DNA from: Candidatus Krumholzibacteriia bacterium | GTDB lineage: Bacteria; Krumholzibacteriota; Krumholzibacteriia; JAJRXK01 | Assembly: GCA_035268685.1 (NCBI GenBank) | Contig: DATFKK010000031.1 | Coordinates: 1 to 35,087, forward strand | Reading direction: 5' to 3' | Length of the DNA: 35,087 nt | Shown here: in pieces, positions 3,915-22,120 of the stretch | How positions within the stretch are numbered: position 1 is the first letter of the stretch | How the letters are laid out: the number at the start of each line of letters is the position of its first letter | Translations under genes and position numbers: made by a program | Notes under the pieces: model-generated | The model's input: the letters and a program-made list of their open reading frames with translations, nothing else | What the model was told of the DNA's origin: nothing | Database searches by the model: none

Positions 3915-3968
3915 GGCCGCCCGAGGCTCCGGACGGCCCGCCCTCGCTGCCCGGGACGGATGATCTCG

Positions 3969-5420
3969 ATGCGTGCCGCTCTCCGTGTCTTCGCCGCCGG
4001 ATTCGCCCTGTCGATCGCTCTGACCGGCTGCGACCGCGACGACTCCGACTACCGCCCGCTCGAACTGTCGACCGATCCGATCGTCTTCGAGGACGAGTTC
4101 GGGCCGACCATCTTCGAGCCCTTCCTCACGGCGAGGCAGGATGCCGTGACCCTTGCCGACGTCGTGACCTTCGGCGACTCCGAAGGTGCGATCCGGATCG
4201 AGGTCGATCCTCTGTCGGTCGGCCCCTTCTCGGGCGGCGCCTTCACCGTGCCCGTTGCCCGGGACCTGTCCGGATACAACGCGCTGCGTCTGCAGATCCG
4301 GGCCAGCGCGAACGTGAGCCTCGACCTGATCGGCTTCGGCGAGGGCAACACGGGCACCTCGCTCTACACGGCGAGCACCGAGAACGTCGCCGTGACCACC
4401 CAGTGGACCGAGCTGATCCTTCCCGTGCCCCGTCCGTCGCGCCTGCGCGCCATCCGCGGCATGATGTTCTTCAGCGACGTCGCGGCGGGCAGCGATCCGG
4501 CCGAGGGCTACGTGCTGTGGATCGACCAGGTCGAATGGATCACCGCCGGCGGTCTGTCCGTCGTCGGTGCGCAGATCGACAGCAAGAACCTCCAGGCCGT
4601 CTTCGGTGCGACCGTTCCCATCGGCGAGGGCCGCGTGACCTTCGACGTCGACGGCACGACACGCTCCATGACGACGGCCCCGGACTACTTCGACTACTTC
4701 GACGCCGCCGACGGTGACGGTTCCGTCGTGGAGTTCCGACGCGGCCGGCCCGTCGTGGTCGGCGGTGGCGAGGCCCGGATCCGCGGGCAACTCGGCGACG
4801 TCGAGGCCACCGGCGTGATCCAGGTGACCGGTGTCGCCCCGCCCGTCGATCCGGCTCCCACGCCGAACTTTCCCCCGGCCGACGTGATCTCGCTGTTCAG
4901 TGATTCCTACGACGACATCACCGTCGACACCTTCCGCGCCGAGTTCGGCGCCGGGACACTGTTCGAACTCTCCCGCGACGGCAACGCGGTGAAGGCCTAC
5001 ACCGGTCTCGGGACCAACCTGCAACGCGAGGTCGCAATCGAGTTCGTCGGCGAACAGGTCGACGCCACGGGGTTCACCGGGCTGCGCCTCGACGTGTGGC
5101 TCCCCGATGCCGCGCCGGAGGGCGATCGTCCCTTGATCGGCCTCAAGCTCATCGACTTCGGCCCCGACGGCGAGTTCACGCCCTTCGAGGACCCCGACCG
5201 CGACGACAGCCAGGGCTTCCTGGGCCTGGGGCTCGAGGGCTCGGGGACCGAGATCACGCCCGGTGAATGGGTCACGCTCGAAATCCCCCTGACCGACTTC
5301 GAGCAGTCCCCGCCTTCGATCGGCGGTGCACTGCAGTCGCGCGCGAACCTGGCGCAGATGCTGCTGAGCGTGAACACGGGCTACCTGTTCGTCGACAACA
5401 TCCTCTTCTTCCGGAACTGA
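3969..5420 (+). CDS. Glycan-binding surface lipoprotein with carbohydrate-binding modules
   Basis: The 483-residue lipoprotein starts MRAALRVF and has a lipobox LTGC (C21). I prefer the ATG at 3969 because GGACGGA ends eight bases upstream; an ATG at 3960 in the same frame is possible but leaves no ribosome-binding space. After the signal there is a galactose-binding-like beta-sandwich (about 30-200), an Ig-like middle part, and from about residue 306 a second sandwich beginning VISLFSDSYDD and ending YLFVDNILFF. That last module resembles the C-terminal domains attached to GH16 laminarinases in Bacteroidetes. No glycosidase motif is present, so the likely role is binding beta-glucan at the cell surface, comparable to a surface glycan-binding protein. 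It is first in an operon with a ROK regulator and a GH16 enzyme, behind operator site A. The exact CBM family is unproven. Confidence 0.75.
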   Translation: MRAALRVFAAGFALSIALTGCDRDDSDYRPLELSTDPIVFEDEFGPTIFEPFLTARQDAVTLADVVTFGDSEGAIRIEVDPLSVGPFSGGAFTVPVARDLSGYNALRLQIRASANVSLDLIGFGEGNTGTSLYTASTENVAVTTQWTELILPVPRPSRLRAIRGMMFFSDVAAGSDPAEGYVLWIDQVEWITAGGLSVVGAQIDSKNLQAVFGATVPIGEGRVTFDVDGTTRSMTTAPDYFDYFDAADGDGSVVEFRRGRPVVVGGGEARIRGQLGDVEATGVIQVTGVAPPVDPAPTPNFPPADVISLFSDSYDDITVDTFRAEFGAGTLFELSRDGNAVKAYTGLGTNLQREVAIEFVGEQVDATGFTGLRLDVWLPDAAPEGDRPLIGLKLIDFGPDGEFTPFEDPDRDDSQGFLGLGLEGSGTEITPGEWVTLEIPLTDFEQSPPSIGGALQSRANLAQMLLSVNTGYLFVDNILFFRN

Positions 5421-5435: not shown

Positions 5436-6689
5436 TTGGGCACACGATCCCCCGCCAACTTCGGTCCCGACGAGCGCTCGAGCGAGCGTGTGCGGCCGTT
5501 GCGCGAGGCCGTCCTCCGGCTGATCTGGGACGAGCAGCGGATCTCGCGATCGGACATCGCGCGGCGCGCCGAGCTGTCACGCTCGACCGTCTCGGAGATC
5601 GTGGCCACCCTCCTGCCGACCGGATTGGTACGCGAGGGCGGTCCGGCTCCCTCACGCGGCGGCCGGCGGCCCATCGTGCTCGAGTTCAACGACGACGCCT
5701 ACGGGATCCTCGGAGTGGAGATCGGCGGTGCGCACGTGGCCGTGGCGGTGACCGACCTCCGCGGGCGCGTCCTCGCGTGGAACGAGGTCCCCTTCGACGT
5801 CCGTGACGATCCCGTCGGAACCCGCCGCACCGTGATCGAGTTGTGCGAGAAGAACCTGGCCCAGTGGGGTCGTGGAATCGACGACCTGCTGGGCATCGGG
5901 GTCGGCCTTCCGGCGCCCGTCGATCCCGATCGTCCCGATCAGCTCAGCGAGCTCGTTCTGCCCGCCTGGAAGGGCCGCTCCGGCATGGACGAGATCGCCC
6001 ATCACTTCGGTGTGCCCCTGCTCGTGGACAACGACGCCAATCTCGGCGCGATCGCCGAGCACTGGTGGGGCGTCGGACGCGGCATCGACGACTTCGCCTA
6101 CATCAAGGTGGCGACCGGGATCGGTTCGGGTCACCTGATCGACGGACAGGTGTACCGTGGCGCCACCGGTGTGGCCGGTGAGATCGGCCACATGGCGATC
6201 GACCCCAACGGTCCGCGGTGCGTGTGCGGCCTCCGCGGCTGCCTGACGACGTTCGTCGGCCGCCCCGCCCTGTTCCTCCGCGCGCGCGTCCTCGCCGAGC
6301 AGTATCCCGACAGCGCCCTCGCACGGGCCCAGGACTCGCTGGCGGAGATCGAGGACGCGGCCCTGAGCGGGGACCGGGCGGCCTGTCAGCTCGTGGACGA
6401 AGCCGCCCGTAACCTCGGTATCGCCGTGTCCGGCCTGCTCAACCTGATGAACCCGGCGCGGATCGTCCTCGGCGGCGACTTCGCGCGCCTGGGTGACCTG
6501 CTTCTCGACCCCCTGCGCGATCAGATCGCCCAACGGACGATCGTGACTTCCGTCACCGCGGCGGAGGTGATGACCAGCGACCTTGGCCCGCGCACGACTG
6601 CCGTCGGTGCGGCGACCATGGTCCTCGATGCCGCGCTCTCGGATTCACGAATGTTCCCGATGGCGGCCTCGCGCCAGGAGGCTCCTTGA
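5436..6689 (+). CDS. ROK-family transcriptional repressor (NagC/Mlc/XylR type)
   Basis: The 417-residue protein combines an N-terminal winged helix-turn-helix (about 24-66, with RSDIARRAELSRSTVSEIV) with a ROK sugar-binding domain. The ROK zinc site is present: H252, C262, C264 and C269 in GHMAIDPNG...CVCGLRGC. The first phosphate-type motif reads GVEIGG rather than DxGxT, which fits a sugar-sensing regulator more than an active kinase. The start is TTG at 5436, eight bases after AGCGAGG. The stop overlaps the TTG of the next gene (TTGA), so ROK and GH16 are translationally coupled. ROK repressors bind AT-armed interrupted palindromes and release them on binding a sugar or sugar phosphate. 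It is therefore the best candidate to bind the four TTTGTTCGG-N3-CCGAACAAA sites here. The effector is unknown; glucose or a laminari-oligosaccharide is a guess. Confidence 0.9.
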   Translation: MGTRSPANFGPDERSSERVRPLREAVLRLIWDEQRISRSDIARRAELSRSTVSEIVATLLPTGLVREGGPAPSRGGRRPIVLEFNDDAYGILGVEIGGAHVAVAVTDLRGRVLAWNEVPFDVRDDPVGTRRTVIELCEKNLAQWGRGIDDLLGIGVGLPAPVDPDRPDQLSELVLPAWKGRSGMDEIAHHFGVPLLVDNDANLGAIAEHWWGVGRGIDDFAYIKVATGIGSGHLIDGQVYRGATGVAGEIGHMAIDPNGPRCVCGLRGCLTTFVGRPALFLRARVLAEQYPDSALARAQDSLAEIEDAALSGDRAACQLVDEAARNLGIAVSGLLNLMNPARIVLGGDFARLGDLLLDPLRDQIAQRTIVTSVTAAEVMTSDLGPRTTAVGAATMVLDAALSDSRMFPMAASRQEAP

Positions 6690-7525
6690 GGCTTCTCCGC
6701 AATCCGCGACTCCGTGTTCCGCTGCTCGTCCTGCTGCTGTCCGGTCTCGTGTTCCTCGTGCCCGCCTGCGGCGACGACGACGAAGACGAAGGGACCTATG
6801 TCCTCACCTGGTCCGACGAGTTCGACGGGCCGGCCGACACGTCACCCGATCCCGAGAAGTGGACCTACGACATCGGGACCGGGGTGAACGGTTGGGGAAA
6901 CGCCCAACTCGAGTACGACACCGACCGCATCGAGAACGTCCGTCTCGACGGCGAAGGCCACCTCGAGATCGTCGCGCGCGAAGAGGAATTCGGCGACCGC
7001 CAGTACACCTCGGCGCGCATCAAGACCGAAGGCCTCTTCACCCAGCGCTACGGCCGCTTCGAGGCACGGATCCAGCTCCCGCGAGGCCAGGGCATCTGGC
7101 CCGCCTTCTGGATGCTCGGCGACGACTTCCGCCAGGTCGGCTGGCCCGACAGCGGCGAGATCGACATCATGGAGTACCGGGGCCAGAACCCCGACGAGGT
7201 CCTCGGTACCGTCCACGGCCCCGGCTACTCGGGCGGCGCGTCGATCGGCGCACGGTTCATCCTCGACGGCGGCGACTTCGACGCCGGCTTCCACGTGTTC
7301 TCGATCGAGTGGACCGACGACCGCATCACCTGGTTCGTCGACGACGTCCCCTACCACCGCGTGCGCCCGCAGGACCTCGGTGGTCGCGAGTGGGTGTTCG
7401 ACCACCCGTTCTTCATGATCCTGAACGTGGCGGTCGGCGGGAACTTCGTGGGCCCGCCCGACGAGACGACGCGCTTCCCGCAGACGATGCGGGTGGACTG
7501 GGTACGGGTGTACGAGCGGCAGTGA
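6686..7525 (+). CDS. GH16 endo-beta-1,3-glucanase (laminarinase) lipoprotein
   Basis: The 279-residue protein has a lipoprotein signal ending LVPAC (C28), so it is probably anchored in a membrane, likely the outer one. The catalytic domain (about 37-279) carries the GH16 signature GEIDIMEYRG, with E158 as nucleophile, D160 as helper and E163 as acid/base. WPAFWMLG and the C-terminal VDWVRVYE strand are typical of laminarinase-type GH16, which cuts beta-1,3-glucan internally. The start is a TTG at 6686 overlapping the ROK stop, with AGGAGG just upstream. A short acidic linker (DDDEDE) follows the lipid cysteine. It is last in the site A operon. Mixed-linkage beta-glucanase activity is the main alternative. 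Confidence 0.92.
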   Translation: MRLLRNPRLRVPLLVLLLSGLVFLVPACGDDDEDEGTYVLTWSDEFDGPADTSPDPEKWTYDIGTGVNGWGNAQLEYDTDRIENVRLDGEGHLEIVAREEEFGDRQYTSARIKTEGLFTQRYGRFEARIQLPRGQGIWPAFWMLGDDFRQVGWPDSGEIDIMEYRGQNPDEVLGTVHGPGYSGGASIGARFILDGGDFDAGFHVFSIEWTDDRITWFVDDVPYHRVRPQDLGGREWVFDHPFFMILNVAVGGNFVGPPDETTRFPQTMRVDWVRVYERQ

Positions 7526-7600: not shown

Positions 7601-10600
7601 CTACATGGCGAAGTGCAGGTAGGTGCGGATCTCCCACTCCCGGCCGTTCTCGTCCTCGTCGGCCGTCAGGTCGACCGCGGGCTCGTAGCGGTCGGAGAAC
7701 TCGTCCAGACTCCGCCAGCTCGCCCGCACGCCGAAGCGGGTCTGCGGCGAATCCGCGAACCACCGCGGCGCCCCGAGCGTGACCGACACGTCACCGATCA
7801 ACTGGAGCGGATAGGTCAGGTTGAAGTCGCGGTGGAAGTCGTAGGGACCCCAGTCGTCCTTCTTCACCACGCCCATCAGCGACATGCGCGAGTTCACGTA
7901 ACGGGCATCGAAGTGCAGGCGGTCGATGGTCCGGTTGAGCTGTTCGGAGCCCTCGGCCGTGTCGAAGGCACTTCCCATGGGTTGGGCCGGGCCACCCATG
8001 ACGTTGAACACCATTCGTGAGGTCGGAGTGAGCTTCGACACCACGCGGAGGTGTGCCTCCCAGAGATCCTTGGCCGGCGGAGCACCCCCGAACTGGAACA
8101 GGTCACCGCCTTCGCTCACGAAGACCGTGGCGTCCTGGGTGGTGGGCTGGTGGCGGTGCGTGAAGCGCAGACTCGCGGCGAAGCGCGCGTCCTCCTTCAC
8201 GTCGTTGTCCCACTGCCACATCCACGTCGCCGGGGTGGGATCGTAGGTCATCACGATCTCGCTGCCGATGGTCTCGCGATTGCCGCGGACCTGGAAGGGC
8301 GAGTTCAGGATGCTGCGGGCCTCGAGTCCCGTTCCGAGCTGGGCGAGCGCGTCGTCCACGAAGACCGGATCCTGGCGCTCGGGGGTGAGCAAGGCCTCGC
8401 GCGGGATCGGCCCCTCGAAAGGCTTCTGCCACATGAAGTTCGGTCCGAACTGGAAGTCACCGGCCTGATAGGTGAAGCCGGTGATGACGTTGCGCACGTT
8501 GCCCGCGCCGGTGTCGCGGAGACCCCACCCGGTGTAGTTCAGCGTGTGGTTGTAGCCCCCCTTCGCGACCAGGCCCTGCACGGCGGTCTGCCCGTACCAG
8601 TTCCACCGGCCCTTCTGCCACGTGAGCTTGAGCTTCCCGCCGATGGTGTCCAGGTCGTCGATCTCGTCGGTGAAGAAGTCGAAGCGGCCGTCGGGTCCGC
8701 GCTCGGCCACCTGGAATTCCTCGCCCACCTCGGTGCTGCCCGACCAGATCGCACCGGCGGTGACGCCGAAGGGTCCGAGGCGGGTCTCGGTCTGCAAGGT
8801 CAGACGACGGTTGTCGCGCTGAGGGATCGCGATCGAGGTCACCGCCTCCGCCGCGGGCGACGCGACGTCCTCGTGGTAGATCGCCGTCGTCAGGAAGCGA
8901 CCGTGCTGTTTGCGGTACTTCACGAGGAAGGCGGGATTCGCACCCCACCACAGCTCGGGACCGAAGGCGAACTTCACACCGTCGAGCGCCTTCTTGCCCT
9001 CGATCTCGACCCCGAGCGGCGCCTCACCGTTGTAGATGTCGATGTTCTCTCCGTAGAAGGCCTCGGGGTACAGCCCGAAGAAGTCACCCTCGTAGCCCCA
9101 GTGCGTGTGACCGGTGCGGTAGAAGGCGAACATCCGGAACCAGTCGTCGTCCCAGTTGAGCGACGCCCTGTACACCTGCACCCGATCGAAGCGCGGCAGG
9201 AAGGCCTCGGTGGTGTCCGGCGGGAAGTCCGCGCTGAAGGGATTGTCCTGGATCACACGCACGCGGGGATCGAACACCCCGCGATTCTCGTAGAAGAGGT
9301 TGTCGATCGGGTTGCGCGGCACGTTGCCGAGAATGTTGACCGACAACTCACCACGGACCTTCGGTGAGGGATTCGCCTCGAAGTCCACGTAGTAGGACTC
9401 GAGGCGGTCGAAACCCTGGAAGGGCTCGAAGGGGTCGCGCTCGTCGCTCTGGTCGGGCGTCGAGATGTTCTCGCCACCCGTGAAGTAGGTCTCGAACTCC
9501 ATCCGCACGCCGGACACGCGGACCGCCGACGACGCACCACCGGTGCGCGCCGCGGTGTCGCCACGGGCCTCGAGCGCGGCCGCGGCCGGCGTGATCTCAC
9601 CGAAATGCTCGCGGATCGTCTCGAGATCGGTGTCCGGCGCGTACGGATCGAGCTCGTAGGCTTCCTTGAGGGCGTAGTAGGCCGCCCGCGGGTAGAGCTG
9701 GAAGTAGCCGCTCGAGCTCGGCCGCCCCTTGGCCACGACCCCCCACCACTCCTCGTTCATGTTGTTCTGGCCGGGCACGTAGTCGTCGTAGCCGGCATTG
9801 GGCCACGAGGCGTTGGTGTCGTGGACGTCCAGATTCTCCTCCTGGCGGAACTTCCACCAGCCATCGCTCCACTGGAAGGTGAGACCGCCGATGCAGTTGC
9901 CCACGCGGCCCTTGCCCGCGGCCTGCTCGTAGATCTCCTGCCACTGCCCGATCAGGTAGCGAGCCTGCATGATCTGGTCTTCGCGGCCCTCGCGGGCATT
10001 GAAGGCGTCGGCACCGAACTCGGCGTAGAGCACGGGCTTGCCCAGCTTGGCCTCGACCTCCTCGTAGAGATCGCGGGCGGAGATCCCGCGGTAGACGTTC
10101 GTGCCGAAGATGTCCACCGGCCCACACTCCTCGGCGATGAGGTCGATGTACTGCAAGTCGCCATTGACCATCACCACCGGACGCTTCGTGTCGACCTCCT
10201 TGATCGCCCGCGTGACGTCGCCGTACAGCGAGTACAGGTGCCGGGCGCGAGCCGCCTGCCGTTCTCCCTCGGGCAACGCCTCGATCTCGGTCGACGACCA
10301 CGTGAGCTGGTAGTTGTTCTCGTTGCCGAGCATCCACATGAGGATTCCACGCGTGTCACGGAACTGCTCGACCAGGTCGACGATCTCTTCGGTCACCGCG
10401 GCGCGGAGTTCGGGGTCGGAGTAGTCGATCTCCGGAGCCGGGATCCACACGCCGTCGAGCGTGTAACCGTAGCGCAGCATGGGATGGTTCAGCACCGTGT
10501 AGATCCCGTAGTTGTCGTAGATGTACTCGACCCACTTCGGGGGAATCCCGTTGTAGACGCGGATCGCGTTCACGCCCATGTGCTGCATCAGCGCCATCTC

Positions 10601-10846
10601 GTAGTCGAGCGCGTTGCGGATGAAGTCCTCGGGCTGGGTCCACAGGCTGTAGGAATAGTTCGTGCCGATCGGGAAGTAGTCCCAGTTCATCCCGAGCACC
10701 ATGAAGTCTCGGCCGTCGACCTGCAGGCGTTGGCCGGTCTCGTCGGTCACGACGCGGACCTCTTCCACGCGGTCGCTCTGCGCGAACGCGGCCACGGGCA
10801 GGAGCACGAGCGCGATCAGGACGAAGCGATGGACGGAACGGAACAC
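7601..10846 (-). CDS. Secreted GH2-like TIM-barrel glycosidase fused to an outer-membrane-type beta-barrel domain
   Basis: The predicted protein has 1081 residues. The start is GTG at 10846, with AAGGAG six bases upstream and a clear signal peptide (FRSVHRFVLIALVLLPVAAFAQ); the frame stays open further upstream only by chance. Residues about 25-430 form a clan GH-A TIM barrel like the catalytic part of GH2: LQVDGRDFMVLGMNWD, HMGVNAIRVYN, the acid/base motif MLGNEN (E176) and the nucleophile motif VLYAEFG (E276), 100 residues apart. No sugar-binding GH2 N-terminal domains precede it. From about residue 442 to the end, the sequence is a run of amphipathic, aromatic-rich strands separated by turns, as in outer-membrane barrels, ending WEIRTYLHFAM. 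It sits 23 bp behind the GH1 gene, presumably in one operon. The catalytic assignment is good; the exact family, substrate and barrel function are inferred. Confidence 0.75.
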   Translation of the reverse strand: MFRSVHRFVLIALVLLPVAAFAQSDRVEEVRVVTDETGQRLQVDGRDFMVLGMNWDYFPIGTNYSYSLWTQPEDFIRNALDYEMALMQHMGVNAIRVYNGIPPKWVEYIYDNYGIYTVLNHPMLRYGYTLDGVWIPAPEIDYSDPELRAAVTEEIVDLVEQFRDTRGILMWMLGNENNYQLTWSSTEIEALPEGERQAARARHLYSLYGDVTRAIKEVDTKRPVVMVNGDLQYIDLIAEECGPVDIFGTNVYRGISARDLYEEVEAKLGKPVLYAEFGADAFNAREGREDQIMQARYLIGQWQEIYEQAAGKGRVGNCIGGLTFQWSDGWWKFRQEENLDVHDTNASWPNAGYDDYVPGQNNMNEEWWGVVAKGRPSSSGYFQLYPRAAYYALKEAYELDPYAPDTDLETIREHFGEITPAAAALEARGDTAARTGGASSAVRVSGVRMEFETYFTGGENISTPDQSDERDPFEPFQGFDRLESYYVDFEANPSPKVRGELSVNILGNVPRNPIDNLFYENRGVFDPRVRVIQDNPFSADFPPDTTEAFLPRFDRVQVYRASLNWDDDWFRMFAFYRTGHTHWGYEGDFFGLYPEAFYGENIDIYNGEAPLGVEIEGKKALDGVKFAFGPELWWGANPAFLVKYRKQHGRFLTTAIYHEDVASPAAEAVTSIAIPQRDNRRLTLQTETRLGPFGVTAGAIWSGSTEVGEEFQVAERGPDGRFDFFTDEIDDLDTIGGKLKLTWQKGRWNWYGQTAVQGLVAKGGYNHTLNYTGWGLRDTGAGNVRNVITGFTYQAGDFQFGPNFMWQKPFEGPIPREALLTPERQDPVFVDDALAQLGTGLEARSILNSPFQVRGNRETIGSEIVMTYDPTPATWMWQWDNDVKEDARFAASLRFTHRHQPTTQDATVFVSEGGDLFQFGGAPPAKDLWEAHLRVVSKLTPTSRMVFNVMGGPAQPMGSAFDTAEGSEQLNRTIDRLHFDARYVNSRMSLMGVVKKDDWGPYDFHRDFNLTYPLQLIGDVSVTLGAPRWFADSPQTRFGVRASWRSLDEFSDRYEPAVDLTADEDENGREWEIRTYLHFAM

Positions 10847-10869
10847 GGGTGTCTCCTTCGACACGGGAA

Positions 10870-12246
10870 TCAGGACGGGAGAACGACGTCGTCGTCGACG
10901 CCGTGGTGAGCGATGACGTCGCGGTACCACAGCGCGCTGTCCTTCGCGACGCGCCGCTGGGTCTCGTAGTCGATCCAGTAGAAGCCGAAACGCATGGGAT
11001 AGCCGTGGGCCCACTCCCAGTTGTCGAGCAGGGACCAGGCGAAGTAGCCCTTCAACGGCACACCTTCGTCGATCGCGTCGAGCGCGGCGTGCAGGTGGCC
11101 GTGGAGGTAGTGGATCTTTCGATGGTCGCGGACGCGGCCGTCGGCATCGGGAGCGTCGGACCAGGCGCCACCGTTCTCGGTGACGTAGATGCGTGCGACG
11201 TCGTATTCGCGGTGCAGTCGTACGAGAATCCGATGAAGACCGGGCGGGAAGTCCTCCCAGCCCATGTCGTTGCGGCGCTCCGGGGTACCGACGGTCACGC
11301 CGACCGGTTCGCCGTTCTCGTCGGCATCGAAGACGGCCCGGCTGTAGTAGTTCACGCCCAGGAAGTCGATCGGGCGCGAGATCACGTCGAGATCGCCTTC
11401 CTGCGCGAACGGCATGCCCGACGGTGGCAGGTGCTCGCACTGCACACGATCGGCGACCGCGTCCTCGGGGTACCGACCACGCAGCAGCGGGTCGAGGAAC
11501 CAGCGGTTGAAGAAGCCGTCGAACCAGCGCACCGCGTTGCGGGCGGCGCCGGTGTCCTCGGCCGGCTCGGCGGGCACGAGGTTCAACACGATGCCGGCCT
11601 CGGCCTCCGGTGCGTTGGTGCGGATCACGGGCACGGCTTCGCCGTGGGCCAGCAGGAGATGGTGTGCGACGGCGAGGCCCGTCGGCGGATCGCTCAGACC
11701 GGGTGCCTGCTTGCCCTCTTCGTGACCGAGGACCGCGATGCACCAGGGCTCGTTGATCGTGCTCCACGACGCGACGCGGTCGCCGAGCCGTTCGGTCACC
11801 GCGCGGGTGTACTCGACGAAGGCGGGAACGATCGCGCGGTCGGCCCAGCCGCCGCGGTCCTGCAACGCCTGGGGCAGGTCCCAGTGGTAGAGCGTGGCGT
11901 AGGGAGCGATGCCGTGCTCGAGCAGCGCGTCGACGAGGCGATCGTAGAAGTCCAGTCCCTTCGCGTTGACCGCGCCGGTCCCCTCGGGCACCACGCGTGG
12001 CCACGCGATCGAGAAGCGATAGGCCGTCAGGCCGAGCTCGGCCATGCGGCCCACGTCCTCACGGAACCGATGGTAGTGGTCGCAGGCGACGGCAGGCGTC
12101 GAGCCGTCCTCGATCGCTCCCGGCCGGGCTGCGAAGCGCTCCCAGATCGACTCGCCACGCCCCTCGGCGGCGGTGGCGCCCTCGACCTGCAGGGCCGAGG
12201 TCGACGCGCCCCAGCGGAAACCTTTGGGGAATCGGCGGCTGCTCAC
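10870..12246 (-). CDS. GH1 beta-glucosidase (cytoplasmic)
   Basis: The 458-residue protein matches family GH1 in length and motifs: FRWGASTSALQVEGA near the N-terminus, the acid/base motif TINEPW (E166), the nucleophile motif YVTENGG (E357) and WSLLDNWEWAHGY near the C-terminus. There is no signal peptide, so it should hydrolyse short beta-glucosides to glucose in the cytoplasm. In this context the likely substrates are laminaribiose and short beta-1,3-gluco-oligosaccharides. It is the first gene of a minus-strand pair with the glycosidase-barrel gene. Operator site B lies about 165 bp upstream in the shared divergent intergenic region and could act on both directions. BglA/BglB-type naming is avoided because substrate cannot be read from the sequence. 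Confidence 0.93.
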   Translation of the reverse strand: MSSRRFPKGFRWGASTSALQVEGATAAEGRGESIWERFAARPGAIEDGSTPAVACDHYHRFREDVGRMAELGLTAYRFSIAWPRVVPEGTGAVNAKGLDFYDRLVDALLEHGIAPYATLYHWDLPQALQDRGGWADRAIVPAFVEYTRAVTERLGDRVASWSTINEPWCIAVLGHEEGKQAPGLSDPPTGLAVAHHLLLAHGEAVPVIRTNAPEAEAGIVLNLVPAEPAEDTGAARNAVRWFDGFFNRWFLDPLLRGRYPEDAVADRVQCEHLPPSGMPFAQEGDLDVISRPIDFLGVNYYSRAVFDADENGEPVGVTVGTPERRNDMGWEDFPPGLHRILVRLHREYDVARIYVTENGGAWSDAPDADGRVRDHRKIHYLHGHLHAALDAIDEGVPLKGYFAWSLLDNWEWAHGYPMRFGFYWIDYETQRRVAKDSALWYRDVIAHHGVDDDVVLPS

Positions 12247-12546
12247 GGGCGGACCTCGTGGGTTTCAAGCCCCTTCATAGCAGTGACTTGCCAATCTATT
12301 CGGTCCATGACCCTGACGGAAGGATCGGGCCGGTACCCCAGGACCGGGAGCCGAGCCGGGGGCGGGTTGAGGGCGGATCCGTTCACGAGGCCTCGACACG
12401 AAATGGGGACTTTGTTCGGGGCCCGAACATAGTGTATGATGCCCCCGGGCGTGTCAACCACGACGCCCCTCTCGTACCGCGGTTCGGCCGGCTTCGGCCC
12501 GACCGCACCCGATTCCGGCCCCATCCACTCCCAAGGTGGCGAGACC
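12247..12546. other. 300-bp divergent intergenic region between GH1 and the CBM gene
   Basis: No gene is visible here. The right half contains operator site B and a TATGAT -10 for the plus-strand CBM gene. The left half, next to GH1, holds only a degenerate one-armed match to the operator (TCTATTCGG at 12295-12303). The leader from the predicted -10 to the CBM start is about 105 nt and shows no recognised riboswitch. Confidence 0.6.
12411..12440 (+). promoter_or_regulatory. Operator site B with overlapping promoter
   Basis: TTTGTTCGG-GGC-CCGAACATA occupies 12411-12431, with one mismatch in the right arm relative to a perfect palindrome. TTGTTC (12412-12417), inside the left arm, lies 17 bp from TATGAT (12435-12440), so the operator covers the presumed -35 and spacer. 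The pattern AGTGTA directly after the right arm also follows site D. Confidence 0.7.
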
Positions 12547-13194
12547 ATGCACCAGGCAAATTCGTTTCTCCGTATCGCAGTGGTGACGCTCGCGATCCTC
12601 GCCGTCGGATCGACGGCGTCGGCGCAGAACCTTCTCACCAACCCCGGCTTCGAGGATGGCTCGGCTCCGGCCGCTGGCGCCGGCCCGGGTTGGATCACGT
12701 TCGGCAACGTCTTCACCGAAGCCAGCTTCCCGCTGAGCGGCAGCCAGACCTGCAAGATGTTCGGCAACTTCAGCGGCGGCTTCGACGTCACCGGCATCTT
12801 CCAGGAATTCGCCTGCAGCGCCGGCGAGGAGTTCCAGCTGAGCTCGAACGCCTACCATTCGTCCGACGACCCGATGATCGGCGTCGGTCCGACCGACGAC
12901 AACTGGGTCGTCCAGAAGATCGCCTTCTTCGACGGCTCGGGGAACGAACTCACGGCGGCGGCGTCGGAGTCGATCATCCTCGACGGCACCTTTGCCGTGG
13001 ACACGTGGCACGCGGCGGCACCGATCACCGCCACCGCTCCGGCCGGGGCCGCCACGGTCCAGGCGCTGATCCTCTACCTACAGCCCGCCAGCGACGGGGG
13101 CGCCGCGTTCATCGACGACGTCGTGTTCGAGAACATCACGCCGGTGAGCAACGACGAGGGCTCGTTCGGAAAGGTGAAGAGCCTGTACCAGTAG
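12547..13194 (+). CDS. Secreted CBM4/9-like carbohydrate-binding protein with conserved C-terminal tail
   Basis: The 215-residue protein has a signal peptide ending GSTASAQ. It continues with one beta-sandwich (about 26-195) that begins NLLTNPGFEDG and ends ALILYLQP...AFIDDVVFEN, the pattern of the CBM_4_9 family. No catalytic residues are seen, so it probably binds glucan. The last residues, SNDEGSFGKVKSLYQ, match the end of the secreted protein at 24566-25231 almost exactly, although the two have different main domains. The ATG at 12547 is the start that gives a proper signal peptide. It is the first gene behind operator site B and is paralogous to the next gene, whose N-terminal module shares NLLTNPGFED and ALILYLQP. 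A hairpin follows the stop. Confidence 0.8.
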   Translation: MHQANSFLRIAVVTLAILAVGSTASAQNLLTNPGFEDGSAPAAGAGPGWITFGNVFTEASFPLSGSQTCKMFGNFSGGFDVTGIFQEFACSAGEEFQLSSNAYHSSDDPMIGVGPTDDNWVVQKIAFFDGSGNELTAAASESIILDGTFAVDTWHAAAPITATAPAGAATVQALILYLQPASDGGAAFIDDVVFENITPVSNDEGSFGKVKSLYQ

Positions 13195-13228
13195 CCCTCG
13201 TCCGCATCGTCCCCCGCCGGACCCGATG

Positions 13229-13259
13229 GGGCTCCCGGACCTCGACCCTCCGGGAGCCC
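13229..13259 (+). terminator. Hairpin between the two CBM genes
   Basis: GGGCTCCCGG (13229-13238) pairs perfectly with CCGGGAGCCC (13250-13259) across an 11-nt loop. A pyrimidine-rich but not T-rich tail follows. It may be a partial terminator or a 3'-end stabiliser that lowers expression of the downstream genes. Confidence 0.55.
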
Positions 13260-13306
13260 GTCACCCTCTTCCTCCTGAACCCGCATTATCGCCCCTGGAG
13301 GCAACC

Positions 13307-14707
13307 ATGAAGACCCTCACCAGGCTGGGCACGATGCTGGCGATCGTGGCGCTCCTCGCGCCGGCCGCGTCGGCCCAGAATCTCCTGACCAATCCCGGCT
13401 TCGAAGACAACGGCGGCAGCTACGACGGCTGGTTCACCTTCGGCAACGGCCCGAACATCTCGACCGCCGGAACCGACAACATCTTCCTGTCGGGAACCGC
13501 CGCCGCGAAGATCTTCGGCGAGTTCACCGGGTGCCCCTTCCCCGCCTTCGACGTGGGCGGCTTCGGCCAGTCCTTCACGCCAACGGCGGACAAGGTCTAC
13601 ACCTTCAGCGGTTCGAGCTTCATCAGCAGCGCCGACACCATTCCCGGTGAGATCGTCTGCGAGAGCAACCGCGCCATCGCCAAGATCGCCTTCTTCGACG
13701 CCGCGGTCGGCGGCACCGAGCTGGCCAGCAACGAGTTCGTCGTCGGCGGACCGAACACGCCGCTCGACCAGTGGATCCCCTTCGAGGTGTCCGCTCCGGC
13801 ACCGGCCGGCGCGCAGCGCGTCGAAGCACTGATCCTGTACCTGCAGCCCGGCTGCGAGGAAGGCTCGGTCTTCGTCGACGACACAGCGTTCGTCGAGAGT
13901 GACCCGCCGAGTCTGCCCACCAATCTGGTGACGAACCCCAGCTTCGACGGTGCGTCGAACGCCGGCTGGGACACCTTCGGCAACGCGCCGACGGAGGGCC
14001 GCGGCTCGCTCGTGCGCACCCCGACCGGATCGCAGAAGCTGTTCGGCACCTTCGTCGAGGGTAACGACTCCGGGATCACGCAGACGATCGCCATCACCGG
14101 CGGTCAGAGGTACGAGCTGAGTGCCTACGTGCTCACCACCTGCATCGAGGACCCCATCACCGGTGGCAACAACAACATCGTGCAGGGACTGATCGAGTTC
14201 CGCGACGCCGGTGGCAACCTGCTGGGCACCGCCGAGGAGACCATCCTCGACAACACCACCCCACTGGGCACGTGGACGAAGACGTCGGTCGTCGGCGAGG
14301 CTCCGGAACTCGCGGTGAGCGCCGACATCTTCTTCCTGTTCGTCTCGCCGATCCTCGAGGGTGGCGCGATGTGGTTGGACGACGTGTTCTTCGGCGAGGC
14401 CACCGCGACCAACGCACCGGCGTCCGCTCGCGGCGTCGACCTCGAGCAGAACACGCCGAACCCGTTCAACCCGAGCACCACGATCCACTTCACGCTCGAG
14501 CGCTCCGGGCCCGTGAACCTGCGTGTCTTCGACGCGAAGGGACGCCTGGTCTCGACCCTGGCCGAGCGCGCCTTCGACGCCGGCCGCCATGCCGTGACGT
14601 GGGACGGGCGCACCGACGACGGCCACGCCGTGGCCTCGGGTGTGTATCACTACGTCCTCGACACTCCGACCGGCCGCGATGCCCGGGCGATGGTGTTGCT
14701 GAAGTAG
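13307..14707 (+). CDS. Secreted protein with two CBM4/9-like modules and an FlgD-like sorting domain
   Basis: The 466-residue protein starts at ATG 13307 with TGGAGG five to six bases upstream and has a signal peptide ending PAASAQ. Two related beta-sandwich modules follow: about 24-205 (NLLTNPGFEDNGG to VFVDDTAF) and about 212-375 (NLVTNPSFDG to MWLDDVFFGE). The C-terminal domain (about 385-466) contains NTPNPFNPSTTIHF and ends AMVLLK, which is the FlgD/type IX-like sorting fold also seen in the first protein of the window. The likely role is glucan binding at the surface or in released form; no enzyme motif is seen. It sits 113 bp after the single-module paralogue, probably in the same site B transcription unit. 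Two hairpins follow the stop. Confidence 0.82.
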   Translation: MKTLTRLGTMLAIVALLAPAASAQNLLTNPGFEDNGGSYDGWFTFGNGPNISTAGTDNIFLSGTAAAKIFGEFTGCPFPAFDVGGFGQSFTPTADKVYTFSGSSFISSADTIPGEIVCESNRAIAKIAFFDAAVGGTELASNEFVVGGPNTPLDQWIPFEVSAPAPAGAQRVEALILYLQPGCEEGSVFVDDTAFVESDPPSLPTNLVTNPSFDGASNAGWDTFGNAPTEGRGSLVRTPTGSQKLFGTFVEGNDSGITQTIAITGGQRYELSAYVLTTCIEDPITGGNNNIVQGLIEFRDAGGNLLGTAEETILDNTTPLGTWTKTSVVGEAPELAVSADIFFLFVSPILEGGAMWLDDVFFGEATATNAPASARGVDLEQNTPNPFNPSTTIHFTLERSGPVNLRVFDAKGRLVSTLAERAFDAGRHAVTWDGRTDDGHAVASGVYHYVLDTPTGRDARAMVLLK

Positions 14708-14810: not shown

Positions 14811-15188
14811 GTGACCCATCGCCTTCTCCTGCCGTGTGCGCTGCTCGTGGCCGCTTTCGAAGCCACTGCCGTCCAGAGTACGCATCCCGACCTTGCCGTC
14901 GTGCTCGGCGAGGTCGGCTGGGCCACGATCGAGCACGATGCCGGTGAGCAGGCCGAGCGGATCGCCGGCACCCCGACCGAGGACGAGCAGGTGCGCTTCG
15001 TCCACGAGCCCGACGCGTGGATCGAACGTGACCGCGTCATGACCTTCTTCTTCGAGGCCTTCGACGAGAACTGGAAGGGTGGCGACCACCCCGATCACGT
15101 CGAGAAGCACTGGGGCCTCTACCGCGCCGATCGCACGCCGAAGCCGGCGATGCGCGCCGTCGCGGAGTCGCGAAAGGACCGCCCGTGA
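14811..15188 (+). CDS. Truncated GH17-like beta-1,3-glucanase (C-terminal part only)
   Basis: The predicted product has 125 residues. From about residue 24 it matches the C-terminal third of bacterial GH17 glucanases: HPDLAVVLGEVGWAT contains the usual nucleophile (LGExGW), and FFFEAFDENWKGG...HWGLYRADRTPK is the typical end of the barrel. The N-terminal two-thirds, with the acid/base glutamate, is absent, so it cannot be a normal glucanase. The N-terminus (THRLLLPCALLVAAFEATA) looks signal-like, which suggests an internal deletion joined the signal to the tail. Still, GGGAGGG lies six bases before the GTG, and the stop overlaps the next gene's GTG (GTGA). It is therefore probably translated and couples the phosphorylase. 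It may be a remnant kept for coupling, a binding module, or an assembly artefact. Confidence 0.65.
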   Translation: MTHRLLLPCALLVAAFEATAVQSTHPDLAVVLGEVGWATIEHDAGEQAERIAGTPTEDEQVRFVHEPDAWIERDRVMTFFFEAFDENWKGGDHPDHVEKHWGLYRADRTPKPAMRAVAESRKDRP

Positions 15189-18100
15189 AGACCGTGTCAC
15201 CCCCCGACATCACACTCGAGACCATCGTCGTCGACGGCGTGGAGTTCCTGCGCCTGCGGAACCACGACCACATGCCCCGTTTCTTCATGACCCTGGCCAG
15301 CGACACCGACGCCTGGGCCTTCGTCATGTCCTCGGGCGGAATGACGGCGGGACGAACCGATCCCGACGGCGCGCTGTTCCCCTACACGACGGTGGATCGA
15401 CTGACCTACGCACACCGGCACAGCGGTCCGGTCACGCTGATCCGGGCCGGAGACACGGTCTGGAACCCATTCACCGACGACCCCCACCCTCGTGTCGACC
15501 GCCACCTCGACAAGAGCGTGCTCGGCCACCAGCTGGCCTGGGACGTCACCCACCACGACCTGTCGCTGCACTGCCGGTTCCGCTGGGCCACCTGCGAACC
15601 CTTCGGACACGTGCGAACCGTCACCCTGCGCAATCCGGGCGACGCGCCGATCACCTTCGACCTCCTCGACGGAATGCGCAACGTCCTGCCGTCGGGCGTT
15701 CCCCTGCCGCTCATGCAGACGAGCAGCTGCCTGGTCGATGCCTACAAACGAGCCGATGTCGATCCGGCGACCGGCCTCACCACGATCGCGCTCACGGCGC
15801 GCATCATCGATCGCGCCGAGGCCGCCGAGGCACTGCGCGCGACCACGGTGTGGTCGCGGGGCCTCGACGACGCCCGCCTCGCCCTGTCGCCGGACACGGT
15901 GGCGAAGTTCCGCCGCGGCGACCCGATCGACGACGAGACCCGCCTCGCCGGTCGACCGGTCGGCGTCTTCAACCAGGCGACGCTCACGCTGCAGCCAGGT
16001 GAGTCCCGGACCTGGCACCTCGTGGCGGACGTGGGCCGCGACCATGTGCAGGTCGAAGAGCTGCGCTCGCTCCTCGCCGGTGACGATGATCTCGACGAGG
16101 CGATCACCAAGACCCTCGAGGCGTCGACCCGAGACCTCGAGTCCCTGCTCGCGCGTGCCGACGGCTTCCAGTGCACCGCGCAACGCGTGGACGACCACCA
16201 CCACACCGCCAACGTTCTGTTCAACGTGATGCGCGGCGGAACCTTCTACCAGGACGGGGCGATCCCACCGGACGACTTCCAGCGATTCCTGCGGGTCCGC
16301 ACCGGAGACCGACCGACGAAGCTGTCGGGCGAGCGCATCGACACGCTCGCCGGGCTCATGGAGCGGACCGCGGTCGCCGGGCTCGAGGACGAGTATCGGC
16401 TCGCGCTCGAGTACCTTCCGCTGCACTTCGGCCGTCGCCACGGCGACCCGAGCCGTCCCTGGAACCGCTTCTCGATCCGCGTGCGCGACCACCGCGGCGA
16501 GCGAATCCTCCACTACGAAGGGAACTGGCGCGACATCTTCCAGAACTGGGAAGCACTCGCACTGAGCTTCCCGCGCTTCCTTCCGAACATGATCGCGCGC
16601 TTCGTGAACGCCTCGACCGTCGACGGGTTCAATCCCTACCGTGTGACCCGCGAGGGCGTCGACTGGGAGGTCGAGGACCCCGACGACCCCTGGAGCACGA
16701 TCGGCTACTGGGGCGACCACCAGATCATCTACCTGCTCAAGCTGATCGAGTGGGCCGAGGACGCGGTCCCCGAGGACTTCGAACGGATGCTCGCCACATC
16801 GGCCTTCACCTACGTGGACGTTCCGTATCGTCTGCGCTCCTACGCCGAGATCGTGGCCGATCCGCATCACACGATCGATTTCGACGAAGAGGCCGCGGCC
16901 CGCATCGCGCGCCGCGTCGAGACCGAGGGGACCGACGGGCAGCTCGTGCGGCGCTCCGATGGCACGATCGTCCGTGTATCACTGCTCGAGAAGCTGCTCG
17001 TGCCCGTGCTGTCGAAACTGTCGAATCTGGTGGCGGACGGCGGGATCTGGATGAACACCCAGCGCCCCGAGTGGAACGACGCGAACAACGCGCTCGTGGG
17101 CAACGGCGTGTCGATGGTCACGCTGTGCTACCTGCGCCGCTACCTCGCGCGCTTGTGGCCGCTGTACCACGGCACCGATGGCTTCACCATGTCCCACGCG
17201 GTCCGCGTGTGGCTCGACGAGGTGCGGGGAGTGCTCGAGCGCTTCCGCAGCGTGCTCGATGCGCGTCCGGTCGACGATCGCATGCGCCGGGCTCTGCTCG
17301 ACGGCCTCGGCGAGGCCTTCGAACGGTACCGTGACCGGGTGGCCGAGGGCGGACTCGACCGCTCCGAATCGGTCAGTGGCCGGTCGGTCGCCACGCTCTT
17401 CTCGGTGGCCGGCGAGTTCGTCGACCACGCCATCGGCACGAACCGCCGCGACGACGGCCTGGTCCACGCCTACAACATCATGACGCTCGCCGACGACGAG
17501 GCGCGTCTCGAGCGCCTTCAGGTGATGCTCGAGGGACAGGTCGCCGCCATCAGTTCCGGCGGGCTGGACGACGACGAGGTCTTGGGGATCGTCGACGCTC
17601 TCTTCGAGGGCCCACTGTACCGGGCCGATCAGAACAGCTTCCTGCTCTATCCCGAGAAGACCCTTCCGACCTTCCTCGAACGCAATGACGTCGACGCCGA
17701 GAAGGCCACGGCGATCCCTCTGCTCGATGCGATGCTCGACGCCGGCGATACGTCGATCGTGGCGCGCGACGCCGCCGGGCACGTACGCTTCCACGGCGAT
17801 TTCACCAACGCCGACGACGTGGCCGCCGCCCTCGACGAGGCCGCGCGCGACGAACGATGGCGCGCGCGCGTCGACGCCGACCGCGACGCGGTGCTGGCGC
17901 TGTTCGAGGACACCTTCCACCACCGCGCCTTCACCGGCCGCTCGGGCACCATGTACGGCTACGAGGGTCTGGGCTGCATCTACTGGCACATGGTGGCCAA
18001 GCTGCTGCTCGCGGTACAGGAAGTCGCGCTGCGGCGGGCCGATCGCGACGAGCACGACACGACCTTCGGACGGCTCGTCGATGCCTACTACCGTGTGCGC

Positions 18101-18586
18101 TCCGGGCTCGGCTTCTCGAAGACGCCGCAGGAGTTCGGCGCCTTCCCCACCGATCCCTACTCGCACACCCCGCCCCACGCCGGTGCCCAGCAGCCGGGAA
18201 TGACCGGACAGGTGAAGGAGGAGATCCTCACCCGCATGGGCGAGCTCGGCCTGGTCTTCGAGGACGGCTGCGTGGCCTTCCGACCGCGGCTGCTGCGCGC
18301 GGGCGAATTCCTCGAGCACGTCGACTCGCTCACGGTGATCGACACCGAAGGCCGGCGTGACCGGATCGAGATCGCACCCGGACAGCTCGCCTTCACGGTG
18401 ATGGGCGTGCCGGTCGTGTACTCGAAGGGCGATGCGTCCGCGATCGTCGTGCACGGTCGCGACGGTACGAAAACGACGGTCGACGGAGACCGGCTGGATC
18501 CGGACACGAGTCAGCGCTTGATCGACCGCGACGGATCGGTGGTGCGGATCGACGTGACCGTGCGGACGGCAGAACTGCTCGAGTGA
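15185..18586 (+). CDS. Large GH94/GH149/GH161-like glycoside phosphorylase, probably for beta-1,3-glucan oligosaccharides
   Basis: The 1133-residue protein has no signal peptide. An N-terminal beta-rich region (about 10-300: HMPRFFMTLASDTDAWAFV, RTVTLRNPGDAPITFDLLDG) is followed by an alpha-helical barrel containing EGNWRDIFQNWEAL, GYWGDHQIIYLLKLIEW and RPEWNDANNALVG (D632). The latter recalls the WND region that carries the catalytic acid in clan GH-Q phosphorylases. Length and order resemble the roughly 1100-residue beta-1,3-glucan phosphorylases of GH149 and GH161 more than GH94 (about 800). The expected reaction is phosphorolysis of beta-1,3-oligoglucans to glucose 1-phosphate in the cytoplasm. 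The GTG start overlaps the stop of the GH17 fragment. Context (GH16, GH1, GH17 remnant) supports beta-1,3 specificity, but I cannot assign the family with certainty. Confidence 0.65.
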   Translation: MKTVSPPDITLETIVVDGVEFLRLRNHDHMPRFFMTLASDTDAWAFVMSSGGMTAGRTDPDGALFPYTTVDRLTYAHRHSGPVTLIRAGDTVWNPFTDDPHPRVDRHLDKSVLGHQLAWDVTHHDLSLHCRFRWATCEPFGHVRTVTLRNPGDAPITFDLLDGMRNVLPSGVPLPLMQTSSCLVDAYKRADVDPATGLTTIALTARIIDRAEAAEALRATTVWSRGLDDARLALSPDTVAKFRRGDPIDDETRLAGRPVGVFNQATLTLQPGESRTWHLVADVGRDHVQVEELRSLLAGDDDLDEAITKTLEASTRDLESLLARADGFQCTAQRVDDHHHTANVLFNVMRGGTFYQDGAIPPDDFQRFLRVRTGDRPTKLSGERIDTLAGLMERTAVAGLEDEYRLALEYLPLHFGRRHGDPSRPWNRFSIRVRDHRGERILHYEGNWRDIFQNWEALALSFPRFLPNMIARFVNASTVDGFNPYRVTREGVDWEVEDPDDPWSTIGYWGDHQIIYLLKLIEWAEDAVPEDFERMLATSAFTYVDVPYRLRSYAEIVADPHHTIDFDEEAAARIARRVETEGTDGQLVRRSDGTIVRVSLLEKLLVPVLSKLSNLVADGGIWMNTQRPEWNDANNALVGNGVSMVTLCYLRRYLARLWPLYHGTDGFTMSHAVRVWLDEVRGVLERFRSVLDARPVDDRMRRALLDGLGEAFERYRDRVAEGGLDRSESVSGRSVATLFSVAGEFVDHAIGTNRRDDGLVHAYNIMTLADDEARLERLQVMLEGQVAAISSGGLDDDEVLGIVDALFEGPLYRADQNSFLLYPEKTLPTFLERNDVDAEKATAIPLLDAMLDAGDTSIVARDAAGHVRFHGDFTNADDVAAALDEAARDERWRARVDADRDAVLALFEDTFHHRAFTGRSGTMYGYEGLGCIYWHMVAKLLLAVQEVALRRADRDEHDTTFGRLVDAYYRVRSGLGFSKTPQEFGAFPTDPYSHTPPHAGAQQPGMTGQVKEEILTRMGELGLVFEDGCVAFRPRLLRAGEFLEHVDSLTVIDTEGRRDRIEIAPGQLAFTVMGVPVVYSKGDASAIVVHGRDGTKTTVDGDRLDPDTSQRLIDRDGSVVRIDVTVRTAELLE

Positions 18587-18600
18587 GACGGAGGAGAGCG

Positions 18601-19422
18601 CTACTCCACCCTCTGGTACACCCGGACGTAGTCGATCACGAACTCCTGGGGAAACCGGGTGCTGGCGTCCGGGTTTCCCGGCCAGCGCCCGCCCACGGCC
18701 AGGTTCAGCAGCAGGTGGAAGCGCTGGTCGAAGGGCGCGGGATACGCACCCTTCGACGACCACCACTCGTCGAGCGTCTGGTAGAGCTGGCCGTTCACGT
18801 ACCAGCGCAGTTCTTCGGGCTCCCACTCGACCGCGAAGGTGTGGAACTCCGAGTGGAAGTCCCCTTCGGGCAGCGTGAAGTGGGCTCCGGTCTTCGTGTT
18901 CCCGGGCCACTCCCCACCGTGGTGGATGGTGCCGTGGATCGTGTCGGGTTCCTGACCCAGGTACTCCACGATGTCGATCTCACCGCTCGCGGCCCAACCG
19001 CCGTAACGGGAGTCGGTCGGCAGCATCCAGAAGGCCGGCCACATCCCCTGGCCGATCGGCATCCTCGCGCGGATCTCGAAGCGTCCGTAGGTCCAGTCAC
19101 CGCGGTGGCGCGTACGCAAGCGCGCCGAGGTGTAGTTCGATTCCTCGATGCGCTCCTCACGCGCGGTGATCGTCAGGAAACCGTCGGCCACCGTCGCGTT
19201 CTCCGCGCGGTAGTACTGCAGTTCCTCGTTGCCCCAGCCGCAGAGGTCCGGACAGCCGGTGCCGATCTGCGGCTGCCACTTGTCGAGGTCGAGCGCGGTG
19301 CCGTCGAACTCGTCGCTCCAGACCAGCTCGTAGGCCGGATCCGACGACGGGGCCGCGGCCCACGCCGGCCCGACGATCACCGGGATCAGCAAGGACAGGA
19401 CGAACAGGGCGACCGGACGCAT
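18601..19422 (-). CDS. Secreted GH16 endo-beta-1,3-glucanase (second copy)
   Basis: The 273-residue protein has a Sec signal peptide (MRPVALFVLSLLIPVIVGPAWA) without a lipobox, so it is probably periplasmic or released, unlike the lipoprotein GH16 at 6686. The catalytic motif GEIDIVEYLG gives E148, D150 and E153. MWPAFWMLP, LLLNLAVGG and the final IDYVRVYQR are typical of laminarinase-type GH16. The ATG at 19422 has GGGAGAG six to seven bases upstream. It ends 14 bp from the convergent phosphorylase gene. Operator site C lies 28-48 bp upstream of the start, so the gene should belong to the same regulon. The two GH16 enzymes are clearly divergent, not a recent duplication. Confidence 0.93.
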   Translation of the reverse strand: MRPVALFVLSLLIPVIVGPAWAAAPSSDPAYELVWSDEFDGTALDLDKWQPQIGTGCPDLCGWGNEELQYYRAENATVADGFLTITAREERIEESNYTSARLRTRHRGDWTYGRFEIRARMPIGQGMWPAFWMLPTDSRYGGWAASGEIDIVEYLGQEPDTIHGTIHHGGEWPGNTKTGAHFTLPEGDFHSEFHTFAVEWEPEELRWYVNGQLYQTLDEWWSSKGAYPAPFDQRFHLLLNLAVGGRWPGNPDASTRFPQEFVIDYVRVYQRVE

Positions 19423-19449
19423 GGACTCTCCCGGTGGGGGCTCGGCAAC

Positions 19450-21939: not shown

Positions 21940-22120
21940 GGCGCGAATTGTCCGCGGGCGGCTCACAGCTGGCAAGACGACAGTCCGCACCGACACGACG
22001 AGAGCACCGATCACCACGGAAACGTGATCTACCGCCGCCGGGATTGGTACTCCTCACAGCCCGGTCTTACGATGCCACCCCCACCGTGCCTGTTTCCGCG
22101 CCAACCCACGAGGACGAGGA

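Follow-up and report, generated by a model that had tools for sequence, protein, structure and literature searches.

How could beta-1,3-glucan cross the outer membrane of a bacterium whose glucan locus holds neither SusC nor SusD? The question is raised by a stretch of 35,087 nucleotides from a Candidatus Krumholzibacteriia bacterium (contig DATFKK010000031.1), the whole of which is termed the window here, in which one gene encodes a glycosidase followed by what is probably an outer-membrane beta-barrel. Laminarin is a major marine carbon store, and beta-glucans are common dietary fibres. The reading favored here, at a probability of roughly 0.6, is that the fusion is a SusCD-independent importer of beta-1,3-glucan of the laminarin type, combining a pore with a glucanase on its periplasmic face, and that a surface glycan-binding lipoprotein and a GH16 enzyme assist it.

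A single reading frame for enzyme and barrel

Read directly, the frame runs from a GTG start at 10846 to a stop at 7601-7603 with no internal stop codons, and AAGGAG serves as the ribosome-binding site ahead of the start. An earlier note on this DNA, made from the letters alone, had given one reading frame at 7601-10846. These coordinates are exact, no frame break divides the gene in two, and the single frame is maintained across approximately 68 dereplicated homologues. The 1,081-residue product opens with a type I signal peptide (VFRSVHRFVLIALVLLPVAAFAQ). A TIM barrel spans residues 29-430, and beyond a short link the chain is rich in beta structure (residues 442-1081). The features of the gene are as follows.

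7601..10846, minus strand: coding sequence of the fusion of a glycosidase with a predicted outer-membrane barrel; single open frame, 1081 aa, GTG start, ribosome-binding site AAGGAG at 10853-10858
10775..10846, minus strand: signal peptide, approximately residues 1-24 (ending PVAAFAQ), by direct sequence reading; helix 4-25 in the AlphaFold2 model
9557..10762, minus strand: clan GH-A TIM barrel, residues 29-430, by Pfam GH2_C and by profile and Foldseek matches to BuGH158 (6pal)
10319-10321, minus strand: E176 (motif LGNEN), invariant in the homologue alignment
10019-10021, minus strand: E276 (motif AEFGAD), invariant in the homologue alignment
7604..9523, minus strand: predicted outer-membrane beta-barrel, residues 442-1081, approximately 26 strands, by AlphaFold2, Foldseek and tests of alternation and loop length

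A catalytic domain closest to GH158

The earlier note had described a GH2-like catalytic barrel with glutamates at residues 176 and 276. The positions stand, as N175, E176 and E276 are all invariant in an alignment of 67 homologues; the family assignment does not, GH158 being nearer than canonical GH2. Pfam gives a single match to the fusion protein, GH2_C (PF02836; residues 81-285, E 2e-10). When the AlphaFold2 model of the whole protein is compared by Foldseek with all PDB entries, the best match is the endo-laminarinase BuGH158 (6pal, E 1e-13), and a sequence profile search agrees, matching the TIM domain to the same entry (E 4e-6). In the profile alignment, two motifs of the fusion family, GNE and TEFG, line up with the corresponding motifs of BuGH158, an enzyme from the beta-1,3-glucan locus of Bacteroides uniformis that acts in glucan utilisation and carries its acid/base pair N136-E137 after strand 4 and its nucleophile E220 after strand 7 (PMC7157763). 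The fusion shares this arrangement of a TIM barrel with N-E after beta4 and a Glu nucleophile after beta7. It lacks family-level sequence similarity to GH158 (phmmer E 0.0099; approximately 13% identity in the structural match) and has no Ig-like C-terminal domain, the predicted barrel occupying that part of the chain. By profile and modeled fold, then, the catalytic domain is closest to GH158, a family of endo-beta-1,3-glucanases, and the fusion protein is a putative glucanase.

GH2 itself was considered and rejected. The sugar-binding jelly-roll and Ig-like domains of canonical GH2 are missing from the fusion, in which the TIM barrel comes almost directly after the signal peptide. NCBIfam GH2 equivalogs score far under cut-off, and the PF02836 TIM domain is the sole GH2 match.

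A predicted outer-membrane barrel

The earlier note had read the remaining 640 or so residues as strands of outer-membrane type and had expected a structure prediction to give a TIM barrel followed by a barrel of at least 16 strands, as opposed to soluble beta-sandwiches. From an alignment of 67 rows, AlphaFold2 returns for the whole protein a TIM barrel and then 26 strands (pLDDT 81, pTM 0.79), and for the C-terminal part alone (640 residues) 26 amphipathic strands (pLDDT 82.5, pTM 0.83); soluble beta-sandwiches are absent. The pTM of the full model, close to that of the barrel alone, suggests a predicted packing of the two domains. Within the long barrel loops pLDDT falls below 50 in places. 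In a Foldseek search of the PDB with the barrel alone, the top 50 matches are all outer-membrane barrels, and the matches include MOMP, BtuB, OccAB3, FimD, AlgE, LptD, chitoporin and MtrB. Because TM-scores against solved barrels are low (0.23-0.38; the best, approximately 0.38, is to chain B of the Mtr complex), the barrel is without a close solved relative, and its strand number and closure are uncertain.

Patterns in the sequence agree with the fold matches. Hydrophobicity alternates along the predicted strands with a value of 0.62, versus a mean of 0.34 and a maximum of 0.51 in 2,000 control draws from the TIM part, and lumen-facing residues are better conserved than lipid-facing ones (p 3e-7). 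Loops that follow odd strands span 6-50 residues (median 19) and turns that follow even strands mostly span 2 (p 2e-4); several of the long loops are conserved, as is the C-terminal strand (G-x-EWEIRTYLH). No NCBIfam model matches the C-terminal 632 residues, where Pfam gives only a sub-threshold match to DUF6882. Pfam finds neither a TonB plug domain (PF07715) nor an autotransporter barrel domain in the fusion protein. The C-terminal part is probably an outer-membrane beta-barrel, and the fusion would accordingly reside in the outer membrane.

The short turns of outer-membrane barrels lie on the periplasmic side. Since the enzyme is joined just before strand 1, on the short-turn side, the TIM domain is placed at the periplasmic mouth, and most likely it sits there and not on the cell surface. 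The earlier proposal that the barrel tethers the enzyme at the outer membrane is thus retained in the form of a predicted barrel joined to the enzyme, with the placement refined to the periplasmic mouth.

A conserved glucan locus without SusC or SusD

The genes around the fusion in the window encode glucan-active enzymes, a regulator and a putative binding protein.

10870..12246, minus strand: GH1 beta-glucosidase without a signal peptide (PF00232, E 2e-150), 23 bp upstream of the fusion on the same strand
6686..7525, plus strand: GH16 laminarinase-like lipoprotein (LVPAC-GDDDEDEG; PF00722, E 2e-28)
5436..6689, plus strand: ROK-family regulator with a winged helix (PF00480, E 4e-51)
3960..5420, plus strand: SGBP-like lipoprotein (LTGC-DRDDSD), by tblastn from the partner at locus L131 (31% identity, E 7e-58)
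15185..18586, plus strand: GH149-type beta-1,3-oligoglucan phosphorylase (match to 6hq6, E 9e-289)
18601..19430, minus strand: second GH16 enzyme with a signal peptide, start approximate (PF00722, E 4e-26; tblastn)

Much of this set recurs. Among 43 dereplicated fused loci with at least 6 kb on either side of the gene (the full-flank set), GH16 is present in 42, an SGBP-like gene in 40, a GH149-type phosphorylase in 27, a ROK regulator in 25, an MFS transporter in 22, GH1 in 15 and GH17 in 11. SusC is found in 0/43 of these loci and SusD in 0/43, which agrees with the earlier suggestion that the fusion may replace the pair. Moreover, SusD is absent from the entirety of all ten fusion-bearing related genomes, namely the window's own and nine relatives. 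GH1 occurs in 29 of 69 loci at a median distance of 24 bp from the fusion, and for the conserved MFS transporter, the closest relative encoded in the window's genome is on a different contig (60% identity).

In nearly half of the full-flank loci, approximately 100 bp or less separates the SGBP-like gene from the fusion. Homologues of this gene show a Pfam match to Big_2 and a weak one to SGBP_B_XBD. On the strength of these weak matches, the lipobox and the position, its product is proposed to be a surface glycan-binding partner. In Bacteroidetes, acidic residues after the lipobox cysteine are the surface-export signal of lipoproteins; the CGDDDEDEG of the GH16 protein in the window and the CDRDDSD of the SGBP-like protein resemble it. 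These two conserved companions of the fusion, GH16 and the SGBP-like lipoprotein, probably form the cell-surface portion of the system. Several tandem tblastn matches to this partner occur at each of the loci L061 (11187-14555), L095 (11278-14643) and L098 (11215-13545); its last 150 or so residues seem to be repeated in variable number, which suggests a repeated glycan-binding domain.

Spread of the fusion across phyla

A search for the same domain order, which the earlier note had proposed, finds full-length homologues (48-60% identity) in many genomes of Krumholzibacteriota and several other phyla. Relatives occur in 34 of 80 Krumholzibacteriota genomes, mostly at full length with a few contig-end fragments; a solo barrel was also sought in this phylum, and none was found except contig-end fragments. 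A GTDB contig collection contains 515 loci, of which the best 80 were kept for study. Nearly all of these best 80 are full length (48-58% identity), and they come from Krumholzibacteriota, Eisenbacteria, Gemmatimonadota, Zixibacteria, KSB1, Calditrichota, Ignavibacteriota, Neomarinimicrobiota and Bacteroidota. In a Bacteroidota-side sample of 392 genomes, the full fusion is present in approximately 36, and an intact TIM domain of 430-468 aa without the barrel is present in 8. In-frame stops mark the copies G202:C314:2175-3620, G409:C87:1963-3075 and G318:C53, which seem to be degenerating relatives of either the fusion or its TIM domain.

The gut species Bacteroides finegoldii also has a copy (WP_022275059.1, annotated as a 'glycoside hydrolase family 2 TIM barrel-domain containing protein'), flanked by a partner lipoprotein, GH16 and GH3 with no SusCD beside it; this copy makes the fusion testable at the bench. 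The record of locus L143 (NZ_OY725931.1), labelled a B. finegoldii plasmid, probably represents a piece of chromosome: it contains rpsA and valyl-tRNA ligase.

Barrel-less versions as a natural comparison

The eight genes that encode the TIM domain alone offer a comparison in which the enzyme is kept and the barrel is not. In a tree of TIM domains, whose root was not inferred, barrel-less versions are nested inside fused ones, and well-supported branches force at least three changes. Repeated loss of the barrel is preferred because it is simpler than gaining one homologous barrel repeatedly. The catalytic residues are retained in all eight barrel-less versions, and the SGBP-like partner adjoins just one of them. 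Seven genomes with a barrel-less gene could be judged, an eighth gene on an 8-kb contig falling outside this count. In 5 of the 7, SusD is encoded within 20 kb of that gene (at 1.6 to 19 kb), versus 0 of 12 fused Bacteroidota genomes from the same sample, several of which have SusD elsewhere (Fisher p 0.002, ignoring relatedness). There are exceptions on both sides: the fused locus L100, outside the 43 full-flank loci, has SusC/SusD approximately 5 kb away, and the barrel-less loci of G325 and G380 have no SusD nearby. That the enzyme survives loss of the barrel, and that SusCD is then often present, fits a barrel that does the job of SusC, and the association adds to the case for replacement of SusC/SusD. 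In G325, the barrel-less gene (L121, on contig C23) accompanies GH149 in a genome without any SusD and branches with a Rhodothermales fusion.

A proposed route of uptake

In the proposed route, the GH16 lipoprotein and the SGBP-like lipoprotein would cut and hold the glucan at the cell surface. Oligosaccharides would then pass through the large, plug-less predicted barrel of 26 strands, lined with conserved residues, and the GH158-like TIM domain on the periplasmic side would cut the emerging chains; uptake may in this way be made one-way by hydrolysis and not by TonB energy. Inner-membrane MFS or ABC transporters, the GH149 phosphorylase and GH1, GH3, GH17 or GH30 enzymes would, as gene content suggests, complete the breakdown. 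The fusion would thereby take the place of SusC/SusD in its loci.

With the plug domain absent, a pore of 26 strands would have to be closed by its long conserved loops or by the TIM domain to avoid leaking, and the enzyme as a gate for the pore is an attractive idea. A bolder version, offered tentatively and with the odds somewhat against it, has the glycosidase gating or plugging a TonB-independent pore of 26 strands from the periplasmic side, with chain cutting both driving and rectifying transport and an SGBP-like lid replacing SusD, and regards the whole as a new importer class that extends across FCB bacteria into gut Bacteroides.

Alternative explanations

The barrel might serve for display. 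Type V autotransporters of the EstA kind have a signal peptide, an N-terminal enzyme and a C-terminal barrel, the order seen in the fusion, and a barrel that merely anchored the TIM glucanase on the surface would leave the oligosaccharides to enter otherwise. About half of the barrel-less versions (L121, L123, L124 and L127) have a signal sequence ending, as judged by eye, in Cys and look lipid-anchored, as if to replace a lost anchoring. However, type V barrels have 12 or 16 strands whereas the fusion has approximately 26, with no match to an autotransporter family or domain; its lumen is strongly conserved and several long loops are conserved as well, which goes beyond the needs of an anchor, and the loci hold no SusCD or TonB receptor to handle import. 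Autotransporter-like display is therefore unlikely.

A second possibility leaves the barrel as a general anchor or porin that concentrates the glucanase, the true importer being an unlinked TonB-dependent transporter. Each of the ten related genomes encodes 4-12 TonB plug proteins, and such receptors elsewhere in the genome could import the oligosaccharides. None of these proteins, however, is encoded within 35 kb of the fusion gene, SusD is missing from all ten genomes and loss of the barrel goes with a nearby SusD, all of which make this explanation quite improbable.

The reverse direction of transport has a precedent in PgaB/PgaA and PelA/PelB, where, as PMC9384988 and PMC12022489 describe, an outer-membrane pore is paired with a glycosidase in the periplasm, and AlgE is among the fold matches of the barrel. 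A glucan-trimming enzyme and an exopolysaccharide export pore in one chain was nevertheless rejected as very improbable on gene content: the neighbours are catabolic (GH16, GH149, GH1, GH3, GH17, GH30, sugar importers and ROK/LacI regulators), no synthase recurs in the loci, and BuGH158 works in glucan utilisation.

Finally, a soluble all-beta C-terminal region would fit the low TM-scores to any single solved barrel but is scarcely credible beside the 50 outer-membrane barrels that head the fold matches, the alternation, the loop asymmetry and the conserved C-terminal strand.

Relation to known systems

The favored reading, import through a pore with its own glucanase, has partial counterparts. 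GH158 enzymes (BuGH158, 6pal; GH158(Pro), 9oro) share with the fusion the clan GH-A TIM barrel, the N-E acid/base motif and the second Glu in matching places, and likewise occur in beta-1,3-glucan loci with GH16 and an SGBP. Unlike the fusion, BuGH158 carries a type II signal peptide and, at its C-terminus, an Ig-like domain; it sits beside SusCD and has no membrane barrel. The SusC/SusD-type 1,3GUL of B. uniformis (PMC7157763) has in common the substrate class, GH16, GH3 and a lipoprotein like SGBP-B, whereas the fusion loci lack SusC, SusD and a TonB plug and have enzyme and predicted pore as one chain. The nearest precedent for such a chain is Formosa FbGH17b, a GH17 fused to a membrane-spanning transporter in a laminarin locus, whose authors knew no other transporter-CAZyme fusion; its enzyme family is different, and the transporter is not described as an outer-membrane barrel (PMC6246565). 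In gene set, the fusion loci also resemble the GH149 clusters of PMC5827456, the relevant passages of which place GH149, GH16, GH17 and an MFS transporter together in Type II clusters and in CAZyme clusters lacking SusCD, and name no outer-membrane component for the latter. In Muricauda laminarin clusters, a conserved gene termed 'GH2' adjoins GH16 and GH149 (PMC13188888); this gene possibly belongs to the fusion family.

The earlier note knew of no standard CAZyme with this domain order, and the open-access literature likewise yielded no account of any fusion between a glycosidase and an outer-membrane barrel, which is not proof of absence. The fusion loci, as clusters for the use of algal and fungal beta-glucans without a SusC/SusD pair, may be a new variant of polysaccharide utilisation system, and might merit a class of their own if transport is shown. 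If the proposal is true, one conserved polypeptide would supply both pore and enzyme, TonB power would be dispensable for uptake, and genome surveys that recognise glucan users by their SusCD would overlook a whole group.

Other genes of the window

Between GH1 and the GH149-type gene, two plus-strand genes (12436-13194 and 13226-14707) encode secreted proteins whose 'NLLTNPGFE' domains are related; FlgD_ig and a weak CBM_4_9 match are found in the second. Both genes may be part of the glucan locus, and a similar protein is found near the fusion at locus L110. A sulfatase (19996-22017, minus strand; PF00884, E 9e-44) lies at the edge of the glucan cluster, and a sodium:solute symporter (SSF; 33580-35037, plus strand), possibly a solute importer, is approximately 15 kb from the glucan genes. 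At the other end of the window (3-2789, plus strand), a beta-propeller/Ig protein with a sorting-type C-terminus (FlgD_ig) carries three identical copies of VVARFETGQSTSGASISPDG, apparently a recent internal repeat.
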